DNA from: Fimbriimonadaceae bacterium
GTDB taxonomy: Bacteria > Armatimonadota > Fimbriimonadia > Fimbriimonadales > Fimbriimonadaceae
Assembly: GCA_026129685.1 (NCBI GenBank)
Contig: JAHCHO010000006.1
Coordinates: forward strand, 310,001 to 374,000
Reading direction: 5' to 3'
Length of the DNA: 64,000 nucleotides
Part shown: positions 1-28,396 of the stretch, one piece after another
Layout: every line of letters starts with the position of its first letter
How positions within the stretch are numbered: the first letter of the stretch is position 1
Notes under the pieces: model-generated
What the model saw: only the letters and a program-made list of their open reading frames with translations
Told to the model about the DNA's origin: nothing
The model's database searches: none
Program-made: the position numbers and the translations under genes

Positions 1-880
1 GCTGGGGCAATCGCTTCCCTTCCAAGCGAACGCCTTGGAGTTTGGTCGGCGTGCCGTTCGTTCGGGCTTCGTTGATGGGACCACACCCGATAAACGCCTT
101 CTCCTTCCCGACTACCCAGCCGAGTCCCGCCGAGATGGGATTGACGTCATCGTTCAACTCGTGACCGTAGAGAGGCAGGCCCGCCTCAACCCGTAGCAGG
201 TCGCGCGCGCCCAGGCCGCAAGAGACCACCCCGGCGGCGGCGAGGGCGTTCCAGAGTTCGATGCCACGCTCGGCCGCACAAACGAGTTCGTAGCCGTCCT
301 CGCCCGTATATCCGGACCGCATGCAGAAGCATGGGACGCCGTGAATGTCGGTTTCGACGATGCCAAAGGTCGGGGCTTCGCGCAGAGCCTGACCGTCCGT
401 GGCGCCTTTCGCGAGGACCCCGGTTGCGTCTGGGCCCTGGACGGCGATCATGACGGTCGCGTCGGTATCGTCGGTCACCGTGACGTGGAACCGGTTCTGA
501 CTCGAGATCCAGGCAACGTCCTTGGCATGGTTCGCGGCGTTGACCACCATGCGGAACGCGCCTTCGGCCACCCGGTAGACGATGATGTCGTCGACCACGC
601 CACCCGTTGCGTTGGGGAGGAGCGAGTACTGCCCGCGCCCGTCGGCCAAGGCGGCGACGTCGTTGGTCGTGATCCACTCGAGGAACTCGAGCACCCGCTC
701 GCCCCGGAACCACAGCCGGGCCATGTGGCTCACGTCGAACATCCCCGCTCCTTCCCGCACCGCCTTGGCCTCGGCGAGAACGCCGGCGTACTGAACGGGC
801 ATGAGGTACCCGGCGAAGGGGACGATGCGCGCGCCGAACGCAACGTGGGCGTCGTGGAGAGGGGTCGTGAGGTCGGCCAT
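1..880 (-). CDS. gcvT: Aminomethyltransferase (glycine cleavage T protein), 3' end cut off
   Basis: T protein of the glycine cleavage system: it transfers the methylene group from the aminomethyl-lipoyl H protein to tetrahydrofolate and releases ammonia. I translated the minus strand from the ATG at 880. The reading frame stays open to the window edge, giving about 293 residues; the family is usually 360-370, so the C-terminal part lies outside. Family hallmarks are the N-terminal TPLHDAHVAFGA, FDVSHMARL, a conserved GPDATGVL stretch, RSGYTGEDGYEL, and ARDLLRVEAGLPLYGHEL. No H- or P-protein gene is in view. The start codon follows a TATACT box after only 7 nt and has no Shine-Dalgarno sequence, so the transcript is probably leaderless. 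Confidence 0.93.
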   Translation of the reverse strand, partial: MADLTTPLHDAHVAFGARIVPFAGYLMPVQYAGVLAEAKAVREGAGMFDVSHMARLWFRGERVLEFLEWITTNDVAALADGRGQYSLLPNATGGVVDDIIVYRVAEGAFRMVVNAANHAKDVAWISSQNRFHVTVTDDTDATVMIAVQGPDATGVLAKGATDGQALREAPTFGIVETDIHGVPCFCMRSGYTGEDGYELVCAAERGIELWNALAAAGVVSCGLGARDLLRVEAGLPLYGHELNDDVNPISAGLGWVVGKEKAFIGCGPINEARTNGTPTKLQGVRLEGKRLPQ

Positions 881-887
881 GGACCGG

Positions 888-893
888 AGTATA
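888..893 (-). promoter_or_regulatory. -10 box of a leaderless gcvT promoter
   Basis: TATACT on the minus strand ends 7 nt before the gcvT ATG. Transcription starting about 7 nt after a -10 box would begin at or next to the A of the start codon. No good -35 box is visible. Confidence 0.5.
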
Positions 894-932
894 CGGTCTT
901 GGCGGATTCGAGGCACACGACCGAGAGCTGAA

Positions 933-960
933 GGGCCGCAGGAGCGGGTACCTGCGGCCC
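933..960 (-). terminator. Hairpin after rplT, probable operon terminator
   Basis: GGGCCGCAGG pairs perfectly with CCTGCGGCCC around an 8-nt loop, 25 nt beyond the rplT stop codon. The following T-tract is weak, so termination may be incomplete or Rho-assisted. It separates the infC-rpmI-rplT operon from gcvT. Confidence 0.55.
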
Positions 961-985
961 TCGATTCCGATCCGGCCGGCCGTTG

Positions 986-1333
986 TTAGGCGATCGCTTG
1001 TTCGACGACCTTACGGAAGGCGTCCATGTCGTGGATCGCCAACTCGCTGAGCATCTTCCGGTTGACCTGCATGCCCTTCTTGTTCATGCCGTCGATCAGC
1101 ACGTTGTACTTCGTGTCGCATTGTCGGCAGGCGGCGGAGAGGCGGACGATCCAGAGACGGCGGAAGTCGCGCTTGCGTCGTCGTCGGTCCCGGAAGGCGT
1201 ACTGCCCGGACTTCATGACCTGTTCATGAGCCCGTTTGAAGACGTTCTTTTTGCGGCCCCAATATCCGGAAGCCTTGGCGATGATCTTCTTGTGGCGCTT
1301 GTGGCGCATTAAGCCGCGTTTGACGCGTGCCAT
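986..1333 (-). CDS. rplT: Large ribosomal subunit protein bL20
   Basis: bL20 is an early-assembling 50S protein with a long basic N-terminal extension that binds 23S rRNA. The 115-residue product has the normal length and the family pattern: MARVKRGLMRHKRHKKI, then ASGYWGRKKNVFKRAHEQV, an arginine-rich RDRRRRKRDFRRLWI helix and a C-terminal NRKMLSELAIHD segment. The ATG is preceded by GAGGT at a spacing of 9 nt. It is the last gene of the infC-rpmI-rplT operon, 100 bp after rpmI. In other bacteria L20 represses this operon by binding a leader or an intra-operon pseudoknot; the promoter-proximal leader here is only about 37 nt, too short for the Bacillus-type L20 leader. Confidence 0.98.
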   Translation of the reverse strand: MARVKRGLMRHKRHKKIIAKASGYWGRKKNVFKRAHEQVMKSGQYAFRDRRRRKRDFRRLWIVRLSAACRQCDTKYNVLIDGMNKKGMQVNRKMLSELAIHDMDAFRKVVEQAIA

Positions 1334-1433
1334 GGTGTCGTTACCTCGTTTTCAGTCGGACCGGGTCCCAGCCGGGCGGTCGGCGCGGCGGTAGCGGTAG
1401 AGCGGGGCGGACGGGCGTCCGCAGACGACGAAA

Positions 1434-1628
1434 TCAGATTCCGAGAAGCTTCTTCACGCGCTTGGCGTCGCCGCTGGCCAACGTGGGCTCCTGCTCAAGG
1501 CGTCGCTTCTGGGACGTGCTCTTGTGCAGGAACATGTGGTTGTTGCACGACTTCCGCCGGGTGATCTTGCCCTTTCCGGTGATCTTGAACCTCTTTGAGG
1601 CCGTCTTGTTTGTCTTTAGTTTTGGCAT
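1434..1628 (-). CDS. rpmI: Large ribosomal subunit protein bL35
   Basis: bL35 is a small basic 50S protein. The 64-residue product has the expected length and the family start MPKLKTNKTASKRFKITG, followed by GKITRRKSCNNHMFLHKST and a C-terminal KRVKKLLGI. Its ATG lies inside the 3' end of infC, in a different frame, so the first 134 nt of rpmI also encode the IF-3 tail. There is no clear Shine-Dalgarno sequence before the ATG. Translation may therefore depend on ribosomes already moving through infC. The neighbouring order infC-rpmI-rplT is the one conserved across bacteria. Confidence 0.97.
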   Translation of the reverse strand: MPKLKTNKTASKRFKITGKGKITRRKSCNNHMFLHKSTSQKRRLEQEPTLASGDAKRVKKLLGI

Positions 1629-2187
1629 CTTTGGTCTTCGCTTGGTGTCGGACCTCGGCCTTGGGCATCAGCACCAGAACCATCTGGTTGGCCTCCATGG
1701 TGGGGGGCCGTTCGATTTGCGCCAAGTCCGCCGTTCGGTCGATGAAAATCTGAAGCTTGTTGCGCCCGATCTCAGGGTGGGTGATCTCGCGGGCCCGGAA
1801 CTGGCACACGATGCGCACCTTATCTCCTTCCTCGAGAAAGCCCCGGGCCTTCTTGAGGTTGGTCATGATGTCGTGTTCGGCGATGCGCGGCTTGATTTTG
1901 AGTCCCTTGACCTCCTGGGTCTTCTTCTTGTGCTCCTTCTCGCGTTTCTCCGTTTCGTACTTGTGCCGACCGTAGTCGATGATCCGGCAGACGGGAGGGG
2001 TCGCGGTCGCGGAGACGAGGACCAGGTCAAGACCTTGGTCGCGCGCCATCTGGAGCGCCTGACGGGACTGCACGATGCCGATCTGTTCGCCTTCGGGGCC
2101 GATGACGCGTATGTCCCGGAACCGCAACACCCTTTCGTTGATCATCGGGCCGGGTTCGGGCCGGGGCGGTCGTCTAAAACGGCGTAT
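1495..2187 (-). CDS. infC: Translation initiation factor IF-3, probable AUA start
   Basis: IF-3 binds the 30S subunit, prevents premature 50S joining and proofreads the start codon and initiator tRNA. The N-domain (INERVLRFRDIRVIGPEGEQIG, then PPVCRIIDYG) is followed by a lysine-rich linker and a C-domain with KVRIVCQFRAREITHPEIG. I place the start at ATA (2187-2185): a GAGGTGA Shine-Dalgarno sequence lies 7 nt upstream, an in-frame TGA sits just before that ATA, and the only other candidate, ATG at 2145, has no ribosome site. Rare AUU/AUA/AUC starts that let IF-3 repress itself are established for infC in other bacteria. From ATA the protein is 230 residues, long for IF-3, because a K/Q/D-rich C-terminal tail runs 134 nt into rpmI. 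Confidence 0.9.
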   Translation of the reverse strand: MRRFRRPPRPEPGPMINERVLRFRDIRVIGPEGEQIGIVQSRQALQMARDQGLDLVLVSATATPPVCRIIDYGRHKYETEKREKEHKKKTQEVKGLKIKPRIAEHDIMTNLKKARGFLEEGDKVRIVCQFRAREITHPEIGRNKLQIFIDRTADLAQIERPPTMEANQMVLVLMPKAEVRHQAKTKDAKTKDKQDGLKEVQDHRKGQDHPAEVVQQPHVPAQEHVPEATP

Positions 2188-2192
2188 CGCTT

Positions 2193-2200
2193 GTCACCTC
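2193..2200 (-). promoter_or_regulatory. infC: Strong Shine-Dalgarno site that decides the infC start
   Basis: GAGGTGAC on the minus strand is complementary to the 16S tail seen at 58988-59001 (GGATCACCTCCTTA). It stands 7 nt before ATA 2187-2185 and about 49 nt before ATG 2145, so it can serve only the ATA codon. Confidence 0.7.
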
Positions 2201-2230
2201 GAGATGGATTTGGGGCATCATAACCCCCGC

Positions 2231-2260
2231 ATTATAGCTTCGCGCCGACCCGCCTGTCAA
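2231..2260 (-). promoter_or_regulatory. Consensus sigma-70 promoter of infC-rpmI-rplT
   Basis: Minus strand: TTGACA (2260-2255), an 18-nt spacer, then TATAAT (2236-2231), both perfect consensus hexamers. Transcription would start near 2224 and leave a leader of about 37 nt before the ATA start of infC. Confidence 0.85.
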
Positions 2261-2378
2261 ACGCGGTTCCGCACGGAAGGGCCCGGCACGGTCGCCGGGA
2301 CCTTTGGAGGATCGCCAACGGCGGTTTTTCCCGTCCTCAAAGGGGCGCGCTCCCGTCCCGTCGAAACGGAAGTCCGTG

Positions 2379-3482
2379 TTGGAACCCCTGCGCATCGGAA
2401 TCGTCGGCTGCGGAAACATCAGCGGCATCTATTTTCAGAACGGGGCGAAGTTCCGCCCCCTCGAAGTGGTGGCCTGCGCCGACCTGGACCTGGACCGGGC
2501 GAAGGCCAAAGCGGCGGAGCACGGCGTCGCGAAGGCGCTGACGACCGATGCGCTCCTCGCCGATCCGGAGGTCGAACTCGTACTGAACCTGACGGTGCCA
2601 AACGCCCACCACGCCGTGGCGAAGGCGGCCCTTGAAGCGGGCAAACACGTCTACAACGAAAAGCCACTCTCGATCGCCCGGGCCGACGGCAAGGAGTTGC
2701 TCGACCTTGCCAAGTCGAAGGGCTTGCTCGTCGGTTGTGCGCCCGACACCTTCCTCGGGGCCGGCATTCAGACCTGCCGCCGGGTGATCGACTCGGGGAT
2801 GATCGGCGAGCCGATCGCGGCGGAGGGCTTCATGCTGTGCCACGGGCACGAAAGCTGGCACCCCTCGCCGGAGTTCTACTACGAAAAGGGCGGCGGGCCG
2901 ATGTTCGACATGGGACCCTACTACTTGACGGCACTCGTCAACCTCGTGGGGCCGATGAAGCGGGTGGCGGCGAGCGCCCGGATCACGTTCCCGACGCGAA
3001 CGATTACCAGCCAACCCAAGCGCGGCAAGGTCGTGACGGTCGAGACGCCGACCCATCTCTCATGCCTGATCGAGTTCGCGAACGGCGCGGTCGGGACCGT
3101 GATCACGAGTTTCGACGTCTGGGGCCACAAGTTGCCGAACATTCAGGTCCACGGCACGGAAGGCTCGATGCTGGTGCCCGACCCGAACGGGTTCGGTGGG
3201 CAGGTTCTCGTCACCAAACCCGGCGACCGCGACTGGAGAGAGATTCCGCTCGTGAATGGCTACCCCGATAACGGGCGGGGACTGGGGGTGATGGACATGG
3301 CCTACGCCATCCGGACGGGGCGTCCGCACCGCGCGAGCGGCGACCTTGCGTACCACGTGCTGGATGCGTTCCACGCCTTTCACGAGTCGTCCGACACGGG
3401 GCGCTTCGTGGACTTGGCGGGACTAGGCGAACGACCCGCGGCCTTGCCGGAAACCGTCGCCCCCGCCGACCTGGGATCCTAG
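2379..3482 (+). CDS. Gfo/Idh/MocA-family NAD(P)-dependent oxidoreductase
   Basis: Family members oxidise or reduce hydroxyl groups of sugars, inositols or related compounds with a nicotinamide cofactor. The N-terminal Rossmann fold begins LRIGIVGCGNISGIYF (GxGxxS/G-type dinucleotide loop). It is followed by the family EKPLSI motif with the conserved lysine, and a C-terminal domain containing GGGPMFDMGPYYL, where the substrate-site Asp lies. I chose TTG 2379 (367 residues) because GGAAG lies 6 nt upstream and the fold starts three residues later; GTG 2376 is an alternative. A longer frame reaches TTG 2304 but its N-terminal peptide looks non-coding. The gene diverges from infC. The substrate cannot be told from sequence. 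Confidence 0.88.
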   Translation: MEPLRIGIVGCGNISGIYFQNGAKFRPLEVVACADLDLDRAKAKAAEHGVAKALTTDALLADPEVELVLNLTVPNAHHAVAKAALEAGKHVYNEKPLSIARADGKELLDLAKSKGLLVGCAPDTFLGAGIQTCRRVIDSGMIGEPIAAEGFMLCHGHESWHPSPEFYYEKGGGPMFDMGPYYLTALVNLVGPMKRVAASARITFPTRTITSQPKRGKVVTVETPTHLSCLIEFANGAVGTVITSFDVWGHKLPNIQVHGTEGSMLVPDPNGFGGQVLVTKPGDRDWREIPLVNGYPDNGRGLGVMDMAYAIRTGRPHRASGDLAYHVLDAFHAFHESSDTGRFVDLAGLGERPAALPETVAPADLGS

Positions 3483-3490
3483 GGGTGTTC

Positions 3491-3522
3491 GGGTCCTCCG
3501 AAGCAGACGCTCCGGAGGACCC
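3491..3522. terminator. Hairpin between convergent genes
   Basis: GGGTCCTCCG pairs with CGGAGGACCC around a 12-nt loop between the ends of the Gfo/Idh/MocA gene and the DUF4139-like gene. There is no long T-tract on either side, but its position suggests a shared terminator. Confidence 0.6.
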
Positions 3523-3529
3523 AAACGCC

Positions 3530-5029
3530 TCAGCCGTTGACGTAGACCGTGTAGTCGTAGGTCAGTCGCTTCTTTTCCCGGGGACCGACGGTCACCTTCC
3601 ACTCAAGGTGCTGGCGCGGGTTGATCGCCGTGAGGCCTTTGCCGAGCGCCTTGACGGTGGGAGAGCCTTCGGTCGCGGTGATCTCGCCCGTTACGGTTTT
3701 CGCGATCGCCAACGTGACGGACTCCGTCTTGCGGTTCTCGATCTCCAGCGTTCCCTTGACCTTCACGCGGTCATAGGCAATGCCCCGGCGGACCATGCCC
3801 TCCCGGTCGCGGGCGATCTCCTCCTCGCTGTCCTCGGCCTGGACGTCTAGGGCCTTCGTGATCTTAACCGCCGTCTCGCCACCCACGCTCGTGTACTTCA
3901 GCATGTCCTGGCCGAGCATTTCACCATTCTTCATGGTGAGGGCGGGACCGGTGGTCAGGGGTTGTCCGCTGTCGTTCTTGAACCGGATGGTGTGCCAGAC
4001 GTCGCCTTGGCCTCCTCCGCCGCCCGCATAGCGATCCTGCTGGACGTAGTCGGGAATGTCCCACTCGTAAAGGTGCTCGAAGGCGGTCTGGGCGGTGAAC
4101 AAGAAGAAGTACCCGCGATCACCCTTGGCGAGGGTGACGTTGGGGATTCGATAGAAGAACAGGTCCTCGGCGGCGACCCCAGGAATCGGGCTGGGCTGGA
4201 ATCCCGCGTCGAAGTCGCCCCGGAAGGCGGCCTGGTTCATCATCGGCGCGTTCATCTCTCGACGACCCGCGAAGGTGGCTCCTACCATCGTTTGGAGCCA
4301 CTGCTCGGCGGAGGCGCGCATCGAGAACGGGTCCAGGACGCCGAGGTTCGGCATGTTGGGGAAACCGGTCACGAGCCTCAGTTCGGTTCCCTCGATCGAA
4401 TCCAGTTCGTTGACGAGGGTGGCCTTCGCGACGAGTTTCAGCTTCTTGGGGTCGCTGATGTCGAGCGCATAGGCAGGCGCCCAGGTGAGGCCACGCTCCA
4501 GGGTCATCACCATGAGCCGACCGTCCTTCGGCGCCTCGAGGCGGACTCGAACCACCCGCTCGGTCTTCGGTTCGGGGACCTGCCAGACCATCTCCCCATC
4601 GGATTCGACACGCTCGATCGTCGCCTTGCGGAGGCCGACCGACTCGCGGGCCTTGACGACGACGAGGTCACCCGTCGCCGAGACCAACTCGCCCGTGTAG
4701 GATTTGCCTCCCGAGAGGAACACGGTCACCGAGCGCTTGAGGTTGGCGCGGAGTAGTTCGTCCAGGTTCGTCGCATCGCGCTTGCCCGGCGACACGACGT
4801 TCGTGGACACGATGGACTCGAACCGGACCCCCACGCTGGCGGTGATCCAGAGGGTGCCAAGGACGGATTCCGGGAGGTCGGCGATCAGGTACTCGCCGGG
4901 AGCCGCCACGCCGGCCTCCCGAACGACCACGGCGTAGCCGTTTTTGAACAGAGACGCGCCGGTGATCTTGAGGTCCAGTTTGGTGGGCGCGACGATCAGG
5001 GCCGAAGCGAGAGCGAGGCTAGCGATCAT
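3530..5029 (-). CDS. Exported DUF4139-like protein
   Basis: A 499-residue protein with a signal peptide (hydrophobic residues 2-14). The body is predicted beta-rich. The C-terminal half resembles DUF4139 proteins: NPRQHLEWKVTVGPREKKRL followed by a YDYTVYVNG end, and an earlier segment on generation of a calculated 'WAPAYALDIS' strand typical of that group. The biochemical role of DUF4139 proteins is unknown. A glycine-rich loop (GGGGGQGD) lies near residue 340. The ATG at 5029 is preceded by AGGTG at 8 nt and a TAGGAT box just upstream (5043-5048). Function is not assigned; the family call is moderately sure. Confidence 0.75.
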   Translation of the reverse strand: MIASLALASALIVAPTKLDLKITGASLFKNGYAVVVREAGVAAPGEYLIADLPESVLGTLWITASVGVRFESIVSTNVVSPGKRDATNLDELLRANLKRSVTVFLSGGKSYTGELVSATGDLVVVKARESVGLRKATIERVESDGEMVWQVPEPKTERVVRVRLEAPKDGRLMVMTLERGLTWAPAYALDISDPKKLKLVAKATLVNELDSIEGTELRLVTGFPNMPNLGVLDPFSMRASAEQWLQTMVGATFAGRREMNAPMMNQAAFRGDFDAGFQPSPIPGVAAEDLFFYRIPNVTLAKGDRGYFFLFTAQTAFEHLYEWDIPDYVQQDRYAGGGGGQGDVWHTIRFKNDSGQPLTTGPALTMKNGEMLGQDMLKYTSVGGETAVKITKALDVQAEDSEEEIARDREGMVRRGIAYDRVKVKGTLEIENRKTESVTLAIAKTVTGEITATEGSPTVKALGKGLTAINPRQHLEWKVTVGPREKKRLTYDYTVYVNG

Positions 5030-5159
5030 TGTGGTTTCACCTATCCTAAGGTACCGAGAAGGTGGCGAGCGCGACGCTCATCGAGCCAGGACGCGTTCTT
5101 TGCACCATCGTTCACAAGCGGGCCGGACCGAACGACGCTCTCGCTCCGGCGCGAACCCG

Positions 5160-6596
5160 CTAGAACCCGCGGCGCCCCGCCTTGCTCAGACCCGCCGACG
5201 CGGGCGCTTTGCGAAGCGCGTCCCGGAGGTACAGGTCGCACACGGGCTGTTGAAGGAAATCCTGACCCATCAGCCGGCGAAGGCGTTCGACCGCGACTTC
5301 CCGGCGCACGCCGGTGTCGGCCTCATAGCGGGACCAGAAGTCGCGCCACCATCCGGCTGGCTGGACCTTCGCGCCATCGTACTCGGTCGGTCGCCCGGTG
5401 CGACCCTCGGTGACGAGCGACCCGACATAGTCGGCGTCCTCATAGACGCGGTCGATATCACGCCTAATCGCGCGAACGTCTTCGGCATCGATTTGCCCGT
5501 CGTCGGTCGCCTTGTAGTACTGGACGGTGACGCGTACCGGGAAGCGCGGGTCCCGTTCCACCGCCAAGCCACCGATCTCGGTGAACGGGCCTTCGAGGTC
5601 ACCGTGGCCGATGACGGCGTTCTCCACGCCGGAAGAGCGCTTGGCCACCGCGCCCCCGAACCCGGCGGACGGGGAGGCCAACGCCTCGTCGACGTCGCGT
5701 CGAACCTCGCGGTACTTCAGGGGAACTTGGATCAGCAGCACCATGTTCAGGGCCGAATCGGCGACTTGGACGCCACCGGGTCCCTCGTTCCGTCCACCGC
5801 GGGCGATGAAGTCGCTCATCCGTTCGCCGGTGAGGCTCGCGCGCATGCCGTTCTGGTTGTGAAACAGGCTCTGTCCCCATCCCCATTCGCTCGAGAAGGC
5901 ATCCCGATGGTTGTCGACCACGGTCATGCTCGTCCCCTCGCGGGTCGCCAGAATGGTCAGTACCGCAGGATTGTCTTTCGTGGACTGGTAGTTGAAGAGG
6001 ACCGGGTTGAAGGTCGCCTTGCCGCGCGAAGGGACGGGAAGGAAGCAGGCCTGGGCACTGACCAACAAGTGCTCGTCACGGTCGGACCACAGCGTGCGGT
6101 TTCGCGACCGCCACGAATCGGGGTCGCTCATGAACCGGTCGGGGTTCTTCAAGAACTCCTCGAGAGAAACCCGTCGCAGGGGTCGGCCCTTCTGGTTGCC
6201 GATCAGAAGCGTGAAATCGCCCGCCCCGATGTCCGCCGTCTTGTCGCTGAAGTTCGGGTGGCGGATGACGGGCATGAGTTTGACGTCCATCCGTCCGTTT
6301 CGCCCGGGGGACGCGACCTGGATCGTCATGTCGCTGATGTTGGGACCGACCGCCGAGTTCTTGTATCGCCCGGTGTCCTCCCAGGTCAGGTTGAGCAGAT
6401 TCAGACCGGCGCGCTGGACCAAGCGCTGCGCCTCCGGGTTCTGCACCATGTCGGCGGTCCGTCGGATCGCCTCCTGGTACGGAGTTCCCTGGCCCAGCAT
6501 CGAGAATAGGTCGGCGGCGGGGCTCGCAAATCCGGCGAAGGCCACCATGCCGGCGGCGGCCATCGCGCGGCGGCCCCAGGTTTGACGTCGTTTCAT
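5160..6596 (-). CDS. Exported protein of unknown function
   Basis: A 478-residue product that I do not recognise. A twin-arginine-like N-terminus (MKRRQTWGRRAMAAAG) is followed by a hydrophobic stretch and ASPAADLF, so export is likely; the RR pair is not a strict Tat motif. The mature part has no Cys-rich or repeat structure. It contains QACFLPVPSRGKATFNPVLF and ILATREGTSMTVVDNHRD, and ends with a charged helix region (VRREVAVERLRRLMGQDFLQ). It lies upstream of the DUF4139-like gene on the same strand with a 130-bp gap. The ATG 6596 start is supported by the signal sequence. Codon pattern matches the neighbours, so it looks native. Confidence 0.8.
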   Translation of the reverse strand: MKRRQTWGRRAMAAAGMVAFAGFASPAADLFSMLGQGTPYQEAIRRTADMVQNPEAQRLVQRAGLNLLNLTWEDTGRYKNSAVGPNISDMTIQVASPGRNGRMDVKLMPVIRHPNFSDKTADIGAGDFTLLIGNQKGRPLRRVSLEEFLKNPDRFMSDPDSWRSRNRTLWSDRDEHLLVSAQACFLPVPSRGKATFNPVLFNYQSTKDNPAVLTILATREGTSMTVVDNHRDAFSSEWGWGQSLFHNQNGMRASLTGERMSDFIARGGRNEGPGGVQVADSALNMVLLIQVPLKYREVRRDVDEALASPSAGFGGAVAKRSSGVENAVIGHGDLEGPFTEIGGLAVERDPRFPVRVTVQYYKATDDGQIDAEDVRAIRRDIDRVYEDADYVGSLVTEGRTGRPTEYDGAKVQPAGWWRDFWSRYEADTGVRREVAVERLRRLMGQDFLQQPVCDLYLRDALRKAPASAGLSKAGRRGF

Positions 6597-23159: not shown

Positions 23160-25475
23160 CTATCGGGCCGGGGGACGGGGGTCGGGTTTGCGAATCCGAA
23201 TCGTCGACGGCACCTTCCCACGGTCGGTTCCGGACCTCCACAACTCGTTGGCGGCGCTGGTTGGATCGGCCTGAGAGGACACGGCCAGGCACAGGCGTCG
23301 CTTCGCCCGGGTCATGCCGACGTACAGAACGCGCAACTCCTCTTGATGGTCGCGGGCGGCCGCCTCTTCCGCCAAGAGGGCGGCCATCGGCGCCCTTTGG
23401 GGGTCGAAGCATGTCGCCAGGAGGCCGCTTTGGCGCGATACGTAGACCTTGTCGGTGCTTTTGCCGGTCTTATCGTAAGTTCCGGGAAGTACCACGACCG
23501 GGAACTCCAACCCCTTGGCCTTGTGGATCGTCATGATGCGAACGGCGTCGGCCTCTTCGTCCAGAATTGGGGCGTTTCCCTCGCGATGGCGGATGCGCTG
23601 GATTTCGCGGATCAACTCGGCGAACTCGATCGGTCCCAGGTCGGATTCGGCGGTGGCCATCGCGAGTAGCTTGCGGACGTTCATGATGGCCTGCCGCCAG
23701 AAGGGCCGGGTCGCGGTGCGCTCCAGGTACGGACTGGCGGCGAGGAACCTCGAGAGGGTTTCCCATGCCGGAAGCCGGTCTGCCACCTGCCGGAGGGGCT
23801 CGAACCATCGCAACGTTTGGCGCAACTTGAGGTCGTCCTCCGGAAGGGGCGCGTCAAACGTGGCCAGTTGCTCGTAGACGTTGCCCCTGAGCCCAAGAAG
23901 CGCGATGGAATCCACGCTCAGATCGACCGCCGGCCCGCGGAGGAAGGCGAGCATTGTGAAGTCGTCGAGGGGGTCGGCGAGCGCGCGCAAGGCGTTCGCG
24001 AGGTCCCGGACTTCCAGCCGGGTGTAGAAGTCCTCGGCCCCGCCCACGACCACGACCGGGACGCCGGCGCGCTTCAGGTCGTCCTCCAGCTTGATGCCGA
24101 CCTTGATCTTTCGGACCAGCACGGCGATGTCGCGGGGGCGCTCTCCCTCCCCAATCAGGTCCTTGATCCACTGCGCAAACACGGCGGGCTGGAAACCCGA
24201 GGCGTTCCAGAACTCAACCCCGGTGTAGTCGGGGGCCTCGGTCGCGTCCAGATTGACCTCCTTCCCCACCAGCATCGGCGAGTACGGGTTCCACTTCTGT
24301 GCGAAGACCCGATCGACAAAGGCGAGAATGCCTGGCACGGCGCGGTGGTTCTTGGCCAGCCGACGATGGGCCCTCTGCTCTTGGAGGTCCGTGAAGAGGC
24401 GAAGGTCGGCGTGCCGGAACCCATAGATGGACTGCTGGCTGTCGCCGACCAACATCGAGGAGGAAGGTCTGAGCGCGCGGACCAAGCGATGCTGAAGGGG
24501 GTTCAGGTCTTGCGCCTCGTCGATCAGCATCACCCGGTACCGATCGGCCAAGCGTTCCTGGACCTCCTCTCGCGACTCCAGCAGTTCGATCGCCCAAGCC
24601 TCGAGCGCCGAGAAGTCGAGCGCCCGATCCGCGCGCATGCACGCCTCGAGGGCGCGCCACACGGGCGCCACCAAGGCGGCCAATCCGACCGCGTCCACGG
24701 CGGCGCGGAGTTCGTCCCCGGTTGCCCTCTTGAGCCACAGAGGAACCTTGTGGGCTCGGACCGATTGGATCGCGTCGATCAGCCGAGCTTGGACGGGCAG
24801 TCCGGGGTCGGAAAAGGCCAAGAAGCGCCGCTCATCCTCGTCCAGGACACGCTCGGCGAGTTCCTCCCGCCACCGAGCCACGAGGTCGGCCGGGTCTCGA
24901 TGCGCCCCCTCGAATTCCGAGACGAGCAGCCCAGAGGTGCGCAGGTGCGCGATCGCTCTGGCGACAGACTCCTCGAGTTCACCGTAAGCGCTCATCTGCC
25001 CATACTGCCGCTGGCCCGCGAGCTTCCGCGCCAAGTCACGGGCTCCTTCCGACTCGTCGAGGCACCAGGCCATGACCTCGCGCAACGAGGCTCTTTGCAT
25101 TCGGCGGCCTTGGGCCTCGTCCAAAACCCGGAACTCGGGGTCGAGTCCGGCCAGGATCGCGTTTTCGCGCAGTAGACGCTCGCAGAAACTATGGATCGTC
25201 TGGATAGGTCCGGTTTCGGCGAGTTGCGCCTCGTAGGCGAAGCCGCGCGATCTCAGTCTCGCTACAATGCGACGCTTCATCTCGGCCGCGGCCTTTCGGG
25301 TGAAGGTGATGGTCAGGATATGGTCGGGAGATAACGCTTCGTGTTCTACAAATCGCAGGTACCGCTCTGTCAGGACCCGGGTCTTGCCGGCACCGGCGGC
25401 GGCGCTCACGACGAGTTCCGGTTCGTTGGACTCCACCACCCGCCGCTGTTCCTTGGTCAGATCGACTTCTTTCAC
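23160..25475 (-). CDS. addA: UvrD/AddA-like superfamily 1 helicase without nuclease domain
   Basis: SF1A DNA helicase of 771 residues. Visible motifs are Walker A AAAGAGKT, Ia TITFTRKAAAEMKRR, TIHSFCERLL, II LIDEAQDLNPLQ, III VGDSQQSIYGFRHADL, V RIMTIHKAKGLEFPVVVLPG and VI VGMTRAKRRL. Full AddA is about 1150-1250 residues and ends in a PD-(D/E)XK nuclease; here the protein stops soon after motif VI. The GTG 25475 start overlaps the AddB stop (GTGA) and so pairs the two. A longer frame to 25538 is possible but lies inside addB. Its likely role is double-strand break processing with the adjacent AddB-like subunit. Confidence 0.85.
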   Translation of the reverse strand: MKEVDLTKEQRRVVESNEPELVVSAAAGAGKTRVLTERYLRFVEHEALSPDHILTITFTRKAAAEMKRRIVARLRSRGFAYEAQLAETGPIQTIHSFCERLLRENAILAGLDPEFRVLDEAQGRRMQRASLREVMAWCLDESEGARDLARKLAGQRQYGQMSAYGELEESVARAIAHLRTSGLLVSEFEGAHRDPADLVARWREELAERVLDEDERRFLAFSDPGLPVQARLIDAIQSVRAHKVPLWLKRATGDELRAAVDAVGLAALVAPVWRALEACMRADRALDFSALEAWAIELLESREEVQERLADRYRVMLIDEAQDLNPLQHRLVRALRPSSSMLVGDSQQSIYGFRHADLRLFTDLQEQRAHRRLAKNHRAVPGILAFVDRVFAQKWNPYSPMLVGKEVNLDATEAPDYTGVEFWNASGFQPAVFAQWIKDLIGEGERPRDIAVLVRKIKVGIKLEDDLKRAGVPVVVVGGAEDFYTRLEVRDLANALRALADPLDDFTMLAFLRGPAVDLSVDSIALLGLRGNVYEQLATFDAPLPEDDLKLRQTLRWFEPLRQVADRLPAWETLSRFLAASPYLERTATRPFWRQAIMNVRKLLAMATAESDLGPIEFAELIREIQRIRHREGNAPILDEEADAVRIMTIHKAKGLEFPVVVLPGTYDKTGKSTDKVYVSRQSGLLATCFDPQRAPMAALLAEEAAARDHQEELRVLYVGMTRAKRRLCLAVSSQADPTSAANELWRSGTDRGKVPSTIRIRKPDPRPPAR

Positions 25476-28396
25476 GGTCCGTCCGCTTCCTCGTAGAAGG
25501 TCGACCTTTGTTCGCCGAACAACTGAGACGACCGGCACAGTTCACCGTACGCGCAGCCAGTGCAGCGGTCGCTCGGCGTCGGCGTCACGGCGGCGGTTCG
25601 AATCGCGCCCACCGTGGCCAAGGCGCTCTGCTTGACCCTGGGGAGGAGGTTCGCATGCGGTTCAAGTCGCGTCACCATCAGTCCCTCGGCAGGGCGGCTA
25701 TGGTAGGACTCGGCGTCGCCGAAGACGAACAGGCGCCTCCCGCCGTCGAAGGTGTCTATCTCGACGGTGGATCGGCGACCGGGCGCGTTCGACGCCAGCA
25801 GGAAGAGACCCACGTAGAGCTCGTCGCCGGGGTCGGTGATGCGACCCTCGGATGACTCAATGGAGCGTGCTTCGAAGAGATGCACGCGAGGGTTGCCTCG
25901 ATCGTCCGACAAACCCGAGATCGTTCCATATAAGATGAAAGGCGTCGCCTTATCGGGAATCTCCGCTCGGAGCCCCTGATCTCCAAACCGAGCGTGCCCG
26001 CGCAGGGTCGTTCGCGGCCAAAGCGCGCGTGCGCCGATCTCGCGATCGACCCATTGCTCGATCAGCCTGCGGCCCCCCACTTCGAGCAGCCGCAGTTCCC
26101 AAGGATCGGCTGACCCCGCCAGGTCCAATAGCGCCTCGCTCAAGGCAACCTCCAGGTCCCGTTGCGCCCGTTCGCGATCCGGGGACTCCAGCAAGCCCGC
26201 GCGGTCGGGGAGGCTGGCCAGGGCCATCCATCGCTCCCGCGTGCCGGTTGGCCGAAGGCCGAGCCGATGCCTTACTAGCCATCGGAACGGACACTGGCGC
26301 GCGTCGCGCAGGGCGCTGACCGAGACCGGTTCGGCGGCGGGCCAAGCGACCCGTAGGGCGACCTCCGGACTCGCGAGTCCCGTCGGCACCACCTCGGACT
26401 TCGTGATTGCCAGGGCTTGCGCCAGAAGGCGATCGGCGGTCGCGAGCGGCGCGGCAGGAACGAGGGCCGTTCGCGAATACACGATCCGCTCGACGCCCGG
26501 ATCGGCCGCTCCGACTTCGTCCAAGTAGAAGGCGGGAACGTTGTCACGATCGTCCGAAGTCTGCGGGTAACTGAGTTGCAGACGGTCCGAGGCGGTGACG
26601 CAAGCTCGGTAGAACGCCTCGCGTTCCTGCCTCGCCTGCCGTTCGGACTTTGGCAACGGCACGCAACCCGGCCTCAGCCGATCCATCTGCTCGCGGTCCG
26701 CGTCGCTCAGAATCGCATCCTCTCGTCGCCGGCGCGGAAAGACGCCTTCGAGCACACCCAGCACGTAGCCGATCTTCCCAAGTCCGACATCCGTGGCGTC
26801 TCTCACCACCCGGATTCCGTCGGAGCCGAACGGGACCGAGGTATCGGCTTCGGACCACGCTTGCCGACAAGCCTGGACGAAGCGAAGGAAGCCCGCCGGT
26901 CTTTCCTTTCGGACCCGGCCGACGCTCGCGGCATGGGCCAAGGCTCGTTGCATGGCGGTCATGCAGCGCTTGTCACGTTCTTCGGTGCGGCCCGACCCGA
27001 AAAGGCAGGACTCGGACCAAGGCATGTCGCCCACCCAGTCCACGAAGGCCCGTTGCCATTCGTACAGGGGGTGCACCTGGGCGGATCTCTCCATTCGCCA
27101 CGCGATCGTGAGCGAGAGCCAACCGAGGTCGGGGCGGGACGCGGCGTAAGCGGCGCAAGCGTCCCATGCGAATACCGGACCCTGGAACTGACGAATCCTG
27201 TCGAGCACCTCGGCCTGTACTACTCGACTCAGGTTCAAGTAGCTGGACCGCACGACAGGGACTAAACGATTAGTCTTCGCCTCGGCGCAGAACTCGAGTA
27301 CCGAAAGGGTCAGTCGGCAGAAGGCGTTTTCCAGCAAGGGACGACGAAGGTCCAGCCGGAGAGGAATACCAAGGCGGTCGGCGGCCACGCGAAGCAACGG
27401 ACCATAGGTATCAAGGTCCCGGGCAACGATGAACATCCGGTCGAACGGCACCCCTTCCTCGTGCCGCTCAAGAGCGTCACGGAGAGTCCATTCGGCTTCG
27501 GCGAGCGGGTCGCAGGCGTTCGCGATCCTGAGCCGGCGACCGCTCGGTTCGTACGGCGTCTCGGTGTTTTGCGGCGCCGAGGGCGAGGAGACCGACCCCG
27601 GGCGGTTCGCGAACAGCCGTCGGGCAAAGCCATCACTGGGCCCGGCGGGTTCCACCTCGATGCCAAGAGCCTCGGACACGAGGAGGCCGGCCTCGAAAAG
27701 CGTTCGGTTCACGGGGTGGGATTCGACGACGACGGTGAGGTCGAGGGGCACGCCAGCCGCCCATCGCAACCAGCGAAGTCGGTGCGGCTCGGCATCGGGG
27801 CCAACCACCAGCAGAACCCTTGGGAACGCCACACCATCGGACAACACCGTTTCTTCGAGTCGGGCGATCCGCCAGGCGTTTCGAACCAGCCCGAGTCCCT
27901 CGAGGAGAGCGTCGGTCGCCGTCGCAACCTCGGCCAACGACCTGAGCCTCCTTTCGAGGGAGCCCTCGGCAAGATCGGCGAGGCGTTCGAGTTCACCCGC
28001 GTCGACACCCCAACAGGCGAGTTCGTCAAGTGCCCGGGCGATGACCCGGTGCAGCCCTGGCAGACGGGCCGTGGGCTGAAAGAGCGAGTTCGGCGCCAGG
28101 TTACGGCAGGCCGACGCAACGGCCTCGAGCGCGATGCCGGTCGGCACCAACGGCCGGGGCGACTCTCCAAGAAGGGTCAGACACGTTCCGACCAGCGAAG
28201 CGAAGGGGACCACGTCAAGTTCCTCGTCCTCGCACAACTCGTGGCAGACGCGGACGAGCGAATCGGAGAACGAAGTGACGATGCCCGAGCCACCCTTCGC
28301 GAACTTGCGAAGGAGGGGAACCAGCGGGGCCGCCCCGGGGACGACGCCCACGAGCCGACATCGAGGCCTGCCCATACCTGCCCCAGAGTGTATCAT
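25472..28396 (-). CDS. addB: AddB-like subunit, Fe-S cysteines kept, nuclease site degenerate
   Basis: AddB pairs with AddA in the helicase-nuclease that processes broken DNA ends for RecA. The 974-residue protein has a helicase-like N-terminal half without Walker A. The C-terminal domain keeps the four iron-sulfur cysteines: one in ARQCPFRWLV and three in RCTGCAYGELC (Cx2Cx5C). The AddB nuclease core, normally GxIDRxD followed by DYK, reads GTISGLSD and LFEARS, so the catalytic Asp and Lys are replaced. It is co-translated with the AddA-like helicase. ATG 28396 gives the whole frame; Met at 28375 is an alternative. The degenerate site is my reading without a structure-based alignment. Confidence 0.82.
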   Translation of the reverse strand: MIHSGAGMGRPRCRLVGVVPGAAPLVPLLRKFAKGGSGIVTSFSDSLVRVCHELCEDEELDVVPFASLVGTCLTLLGESPRPLVPTGIALEAVASACRNLAPNSLFQPTARLPGLHRVIARALDELACWGVDAGELERLADLAEGSLERRLRSLAEVATATDALLEGLGLVRNAWRIARLEETVLSDGVAFPRVLLVVGPDAEPHRLRWLRWAAGVPLDLTVVVESHPVNRTLFEAGLLVSEALGIEVEPAGPSDGFARRLFANRPGSVSSPSAPQNTETPYEPSGRRLRIANACDPLAEAEWTLRDALERHEEGVPFDRMFIVARDLDTYGPLLRVAADRLGIPLRLDLRRPLLENAFCRLTLSVLEFCAEAKTNRLVPVVRSSYLNLSRVVQAEVLDRIRQFQGPVFAWDACAAYAASRPDLGWLSLTIAWRMERSAQVHPLYEWQRAFVDWVGDMPWSESCLFGSGRTEERDKRCMTAMQRALAHAASVGRVRKERPAGFLRFVQACRQAWSEADTSVPFGSDGIRVVRDATDVGLGKIGYVLGVLEGVFPRRRREDAILSDADREQMDRLRPGCVPLPKSERQARQEREAFYRACVTASDRLQLSYPQTSDDRDNVPAFYLDEVGAADPGVERIVYSRTALVPAAPLATADRLLAQALAITKSEVVPTGLASPEVALRVAWPAAEPVSVSALRDARQCPFRWLVRHRLGLRPTGTRERWMALASLPDRAGLLESPDRERAQRDLEVALSEALLDLAGSADPWELRLLEVGGRRLIEQWVDREIGARALWPRTTLRGHARFGDQGLRAEIPDKATPFILYGTISGLSDDRGNPRVHLFEARSIESSEGRITDPGDELYVGLFLLASNAPGRRSTVEIDTFDGGRRLFVFGDAESYHSRPAEGLMVTRLEPHANLLPRVKQSALATVGAIRTAAVTPTPSDRCTGCAYGELCRSSQLFGEQRSTFYEEADGP
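28391..28396 (+). promoter_or_regulatory. -10 box of a leaderless promoter (membrane protein 28403)
   Basis: TATCAT ends 6 nt before GTG 28403. It overlaps the ATG of the divergent addB gene, so transcription of the two genes may interfere. Confidence 0.5.

Follow-up and report, generated by a model that had tools for sequence, protein, structure and literature searches.

A nuclease-free AddAB helicase pair fixed in a family of Armatimonadota

The window, a 64,000-nt stretch of a 3.94 Mb bacterial genome that is 99% complete, carries an addB-like and an addA-like gene whose open reading frames overlap on the minus strand, at the coordinates given in the first-pass annotation of this DNA. The longest addA frame has 792 codons; the GTG at 25475 is probably the start, and would give a product of 771 aa and a 4-nt overlap with the addB stop. 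A scan for promoters and terminators found nothing. The features discussed below are, all on the minus strand:

23160..25538, addA-like gene; longest ORF 792 aa; SF1A helicase without a nuclease domain
23304..23333, AddA motif VI, RVLYVGMTRA; 57 residues separate the motif start from the protein end
25380..25397, AddA Walker A, AGAGKT
25472..28396, addB-like gene, 974 aa; inactive-helicase scaffold and Fe-S pseudo-nuclease domain; no P-loop
25526..26341, AddB residues 686-957; PD-(D/E)XK/Fe-S fold kept, catalytic residues lost
25535..25564, AddB C945, C948 and C954, the other three Fe-S cysteines
25865..25882, AddB H839-R844 (HLFEAR), in place of DxK
25916..25918, AddB S827, in place of the first catalytic Asp (GxxD)
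26291..26293, AddB C702, the first Fe-S cysteine

The closest named relatives are Fimbriimonas, Fimbriimonadaceae and other Armatimonadetes records (L034-L040), together with two labelled Chthonomonas (L041, L042). We denote the window's family f1, its sister family f5, and three other families of the order f2-f4. Adjacency of addA and addB is the rule in most f1 and f5 genomes; the two genes lie far apart in most f2, f4, f12, f13, and f19 genomes, and also in f1 genomes G016, G030, and G085.

The AddA-like protein has the SF1A helicase motifs of an AddAB-type AddA, and a set of 14 AddAs shows no variation in Walker A or in residues of what we take to be motifs II, III, V, and VI. The first-pass annotation had this protein stopping after motif VI without a PD-(D/E)XK domain, and so it does: Pfam and NCBIfam return UvrD/AddA helicase domains only, with no PD-(D/E)XK match, and the 57-residue remainder ends 5 residues past the family's helicase profile. 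Nor did a search of the window's genome (E 0.001) find a second AddA, with or without a nuclease, or any other AddAB; its only further match was a PcrA/UvrD-like gene on contig C11. Three relatives do have a second AddA with a tail of nuclease length beside the native nuclease-free one (L265, G038:C40; L266, G029:C5; L267, G010:C42), that of G029 being a 2028-aa frame with two PDDEXK_1 matches.

The AddB-like protein is a true AddB. A profile built from 86 AddBs matches B. subtilis AddB (3u44_B) as a full-length homolog with an E value of 4e-63, and the best fold matches to an AlphaFold2 model of the window's protein (mean pLDDT 92.7, pTM 0.87) are AddB chains (4ceh_B, Z 29.5, 890 residues aligned, rmsd 5.8), followed by UvrD-type helicases and then by RecC and AdnA. 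The nuclease domain is still recognizable, since Pfam scores PDDEXK_1 in two fragments at 31 bits, above the cut-off of 22, and its fold is kept, as residues 686-974 of the model match the Cas4 chain 8d3l_I over 193 residues (Z 12.3). In the profile match 3u44_B has AYK at the place of the DYK of intact relatives, presumably because that crystal carried an Asp-to-Ala nuclease mutation at the site. A loss that the first-pass annotation had not described is that of the N-terminal P-loop. In our 86-row alignment f3 and f4 have it, as do 9 of 10 rows from outgroups and 1 of 6 from f2, but no f1 or f5 row does, the window's AddB included. The latch pair (E125/R568 in window numbering) reads E-R or E-K in 49 of the 62 f1 rows, and both residues are changed in 9 of the remaining 13.

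The first-pass annotation proposed that the sequences GTISGLSD and HLFEARS, which are AddB residues 824-831 and 839-845, replace the catalytic Asp and Lys. The exact register is uncertain by a few residues: i) MAFFT places L840/F841/E842 under D/Y/K; ii) the earlier reader had E842/A843/R844 at these positions; and iii) matching the strand ends of two AlphaFold2 models, of which the control, from the intact relative G041 (mean pLDDT 91.2), has GVIDRID and VALVIDYK in two strands, puts H839/L840/F841 there. The proposal nonetheless holds in every register tried: none yields D...DxK, and all have S827 where the first Asp should be.

The loss is fixed across the clade. In an alignment of 111 AddB C-termini the triad is absent from all 79 rows of the window's clade (73/73 f1 and 6/6 f5), intact in all 12 rows of f2-f4 (one of which is the second AddB that G038 acquired), and retained by 18 of the 20 rows that represent other families of the phylum; a pattern for the intact motif matches 0/79 AddBs of the clade and 28/32 of the others, so the loss is not due to chance. 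We also looked for an intact triad in another register and found none in the motif region: a loose D...[DE]xK matches 5 of the 79 rows and a hydrophobic [DE]xK 2, never in the same row, compared with 30/32 and 30/32 of the others. Two f13 genomes, G136 (L238) and G138 (L237), have AddBs with one or two catalytic residues lost (DYT, HYR), possibly as separate inactivation events.

By contrast with the catalytic residues, the four Fe-S cysteines, which the first-pass annotation had already picked out as retained, are invariant in the 86-row alignment. Within f1, each Fe-S cysteine and the arginine that follows is found in 72 of 73 rows, the exceptions being G025, a fragment without the first cysteine, and G008, in which the frame breaks before the last three; and of the 254 columns in the f1 domain alignment only C702, C945, C948, C954, and R955 have zero entropy. 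The three catalytic columns have entropies of 2.48, 2.54, and 3.26 bits in f1, compared with 0.00, 0.20, and 0.40 bits in the 32 rows from elsewhere. For the C-terminal 285 residues of AddB, dN/dS is 0.020-0.084 in 6 of 8 close f1 pairs (the other two, with saturated dS in the domain, were excluded), and is similar in the same pairs for the rest of AddB (0.040-0.333) and for AddA (0.019-0.216). Catalysis has thus been released while the Fe-S cluster remains under full constraint, and the pseudo-nuclease domain is not decaying.

The order in which the two nucleases disappeared, on which the first-pass annotation had been silent, can be read from AddA tail lengths across the phylum. Eight of eight deep-branching rows (f20, f21, f31, f32, f33, f34, and f42) have tails extending 320-374 aa past the helicase profile, and all four tails that were scanned contain PDDEXK_1; in 11 rows of f12, f13, f19, and f24 the tail measures 30-64 aa, and the two of these that were scanned, one from f24 and one from f13, gave no nuclease match. 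If the second AddA that G038 acquired is not counted, no tail in f2-f5 exceeds 39 aa; in f1 none exceeds 34 aa once broken frames and the copies acquired by G010 and G029 are set aside. Among 71 control loci outside Armatimonadota (by record names), a tail shorter than 190 aa occurs only in five frames cut by contig ends and in L071. A quick tree of 81 AddA rows (thinned by 26 f1 genomes, with rows below 700 aa dropped and the second AddAs of G010, G029, and G038 excluded) unites f1 and f5 as one clade with SH-aLRT 100, so that a single loss of AddB catalysis suffices for both, with two more required for G136 and G138. One change in AddA tail suffices if G226 is left out and two if it is included, this long-AddA genome of f42 having an odd place, on a long branch, inside the short-AddA group. 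Judged from these sequences, the loss is stepwise: deep families keep both nucleases, intermediate families lack that of AddA, and the window's clade lacks that of AddB and the AddB P-loop as well. Among the more distant records, five open frames of 2036-2136 aa match both profiles and are apparent AddA-AddB single-chain fusions (L070, L088, L089, L091, and L096, from Marinimicrobia, Cloacimonadota, and Celaenobacter).

We conclude that this is a genuine AddAB pair that has lost its two nuclease sites as well as the AddB P-loop, a state fixed in f1 and f5. Purifying selection acts on the remainder of the protein, including the dead domain with its Fe-S cysteines, and the helicase motifs of AddA are intact. 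The first-pass annotation had inferred that such a pair must act as a helicase or loader, or else need an external nuclease; this follows from the double loss, and candidate external nucleases do exist. The reading that we favor, with a probability of about 0.55, is that the complex would bind DNA ends and unwind them as a helicase with no nuclease of its own, the 5′ strand being cut in trans; this would make it a natural and fixed counterpart of the recB1080 hybrid pathway of E. coli. Specifically, i) AddB, held by its Fe-S cluster, would clamp broken DNA ends and guide the strands; ii) AddA would translocate 3′-5′ and unwind the duplex; iii) the AddAB complex itself would cut neither strand; iv) RecJ would be the likeliest enzyme to trim the 5′ strand in trans; and v) RecA would be loaded onto the 3′ tail by RecFOR or RecOR.

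Several published observations bear on this scheme. According to two B. subtilis studies, the unwound strands of AddAB meet the nuclease domains on exit, that of AddA acting on the 3′ strand and that of AddB on the 5′ strand (PMC4824097, PMC4027173); intermediate families would then cut the 5′ strand only, whereas neither strand would be cut in the window's clade. AddAB that has lost its Fe-S cluster is reported to be affected in dsDNA binding (PMC7311471), and retention of the cysteines without catalysis would follow from such a role. In the hybrid pathway, as outlined in PMC3375238, unwinding is the task of RecB1080CD, degradation of the 5′ strand that of RecJ, and RecA loading that of RecFOR, an arrangement likened there to Sgs1/Dna2; the recB1080 state is described as impaired and leaning on RecQ. 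Searches of 61 genomes for the corresponding partners matched RecJ in 57 (all four misses being less than 85% complete) and RecO, the RecFOR component sought, in 58, both being matched in the window's genome; because the two are near-universal whatever the state of AddB, their presence does not show partnership with AddAB. RecQ was matched in 25 of the 61 and in 14 of 37 f1 genomes, patchily in all families and without a clean pattern, and it counts against a recB1080-like reading that most f1 genomes have no RecQ match although E. coli recB1080 leans on RecQ. Cutting in trans also has against it that no nuclease gene is conserved beside addBA among the neighbor clusters of the relatives' genomes: the two largest clusters are antisense frames of addB and addA, and the largest of the remainder, in 22 genomes, is by its sequence nitrilase-like.

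The partner could be either RecJ or a stand-alone nuclease. Besides AddB, the window's genome has, at the threshold used, one other PDDEXK_1 protein, a stand-alone Fe-S PD-(D/E)XK nuclease (G000:C13:61073-61837) that is about 255 aa long and whose site is intact, so that a search for other exonucleases, as the first-pass annotation had advised, yields two candidates. It is possible, if on balance unlikely, that this protein is the dedicated trans-acting nuclease of AddAB and replaces the built-in domains in a split system. Its GxxDRxD...DYK motif and CxxC...C cysteines are intact in 10/10 f1 loci examined; it is found in all 88 genomes of the class that are at least 90% complete (counted from search rows), and in 136 of 205 such genomes of the phylum; and in the outgroups it tracks the short AddA, occurring in 10/10 of the short-AddA genomes searched and 2/8 with a long AddA. 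In one genome (G039, L158, positions 425-5584) addB, a putative CorA-like transporter gene, and the stand-alone nuclease are consecutive on the same strand, the nuclease lying about 1.2 kb from addB. Against this, the association with short AddA follows the tree; in nearly all genomes, the window's among them, the gene shows no linkage to addAB; and it is also present where AddB is intact (f2-f4), where AddB is undetected, and in the long-AddA genomes G191 and G192, and is therefore older than the loss. The same distribution rules out that the protein is new to the dead-AddB clade only, and its coexistence with a long AddA in G191 and G192 makes it unlikely to be a split-off AddA tail. A fuller version of this idea, which we offer as speculation, is that AddAB could be a dedicated nuclease-free end-unwinder whose pseudo-nuclease Fe-S domain serves as a strand-guiding or docking module for the stand-alone protein in trans, a bacterial split of Dna2/AddB activity into helicase-scaffold and free nuclease that would have evolved from two built-in nucleases through one to zero.

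We think it improbable that AddAB has ceased to resect breaks and become a helicase that remodels forks, counters recombination, or loads RecA, its pseudo-nuclease offering a surface for docking or for binding ssDNA. Strong conservation of the domain without catalysis would suit such a role, as would the retention of E786 and R887 in nearly all f1 rows and of a latch pair still capable of a salt bridge in most; but the Fe-S features tied to end binding are kept, as is the whole AddB architecture, and nothing specific indicates another substrate.

Still less credible is that AddB continues to cut through an altered metal site such as S827/E842/R844. With the register of the earlier reader, E842 and R844 would be conservative replacements; E842 falls just beyond the predicted strand, and PDDEXK_1 still exceeds the Pfam cut-off; yet the first Asp is a Ser, E and R are not kept at these places in relatives, and the catalytic columns vary freely in f1. 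That addAB are decaying pseudogenes or assembly artefacts can practically be dismissed, for although the frames are broken in a few relatives (G001, G008, G027, G036, and G081), they are long and intact in most of the 73 f1 genomes, including single-contig ones, and the selection test (dN/dS 0.02-0.08) contradicts decay.

AddAB, RecBCD, and AdnAB are the textbook helicase-nucleases, and Chi control concerns the switching of a nuclease. The first-pass annotation saw in this pair a departure from all three, and rightly so, as the AddA nuclease and the AddB D...DxK are both absent. Compared with B. subtilis AddAB (PDB 3u44/4cej), the genes, fold, and arrangement are the same, as are the SF1A motor of AddA, the AddB scaffold with four Fe-S cysteines, and the latch (E129/R629 there, E125/R568 here), but the AddA nuclease domain, the AddB triad, and the AddB P-loop are missing. 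RecC, which is non-catalytic, resembles the window's AddB in fold (1w36_F, Z 20.8), but the dead domain here keeps its Fe-S cysteines, and the motor subunit lacks the C-terminal nuclease that RecB has. AdnAB is likewise a fold relative (6ppr_A, Z 20.5), but has a nuclease in each subunit where this pair has one in neither; AdnAB PDB titles name one mutated Asp in each subunit, which we take to be nuclease residues. Of Cas4/Dna2-type Fe-S nucleases the dead domain retains the fold and not the catalytic residues. The pathway of RecB1080CD, RecJ, and RecFOR would share with our favored scheme an end-binding helicase without nuclease and a separate enzyme that cuts, but it belongs to an impaired laboratory mutant, whereas here the state is fixed across a bacterial family and the dead domain lies in another subunit; in the proposed pathway the division between helicase and nuclease would be analogous to that of yeast Sgs1/Dna2.

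In the open-access literature that we searched there is no description of an AddAB without nucleases or of AddAB in Armatimonadetes. The paper on the F. ginsengisoli genome refers to a system for recombinational repair, and neither AddA nor RecB occurs in its main text (PMC4072686). By descent the pair belongs to the AddAB family; since it lacks two features that define a helicase-nuclease, the most fitting name is a nuclease-free AddAB variant.

We wish to stress that a whole family keeps AddAB without both nucleases, and conserves the Fe-S cysteines apart from catalysis, so that the end-binding and motor role is here separated from cutting. Two-, one-, and zero-nuclease states coexist within a single phylum and offer natural material for testing, making it possible to ask which functions other than cutting the AddB Fe-S domain has, and whether two-component resection, as practiced by eukaryotes, takes place in bacteria too.
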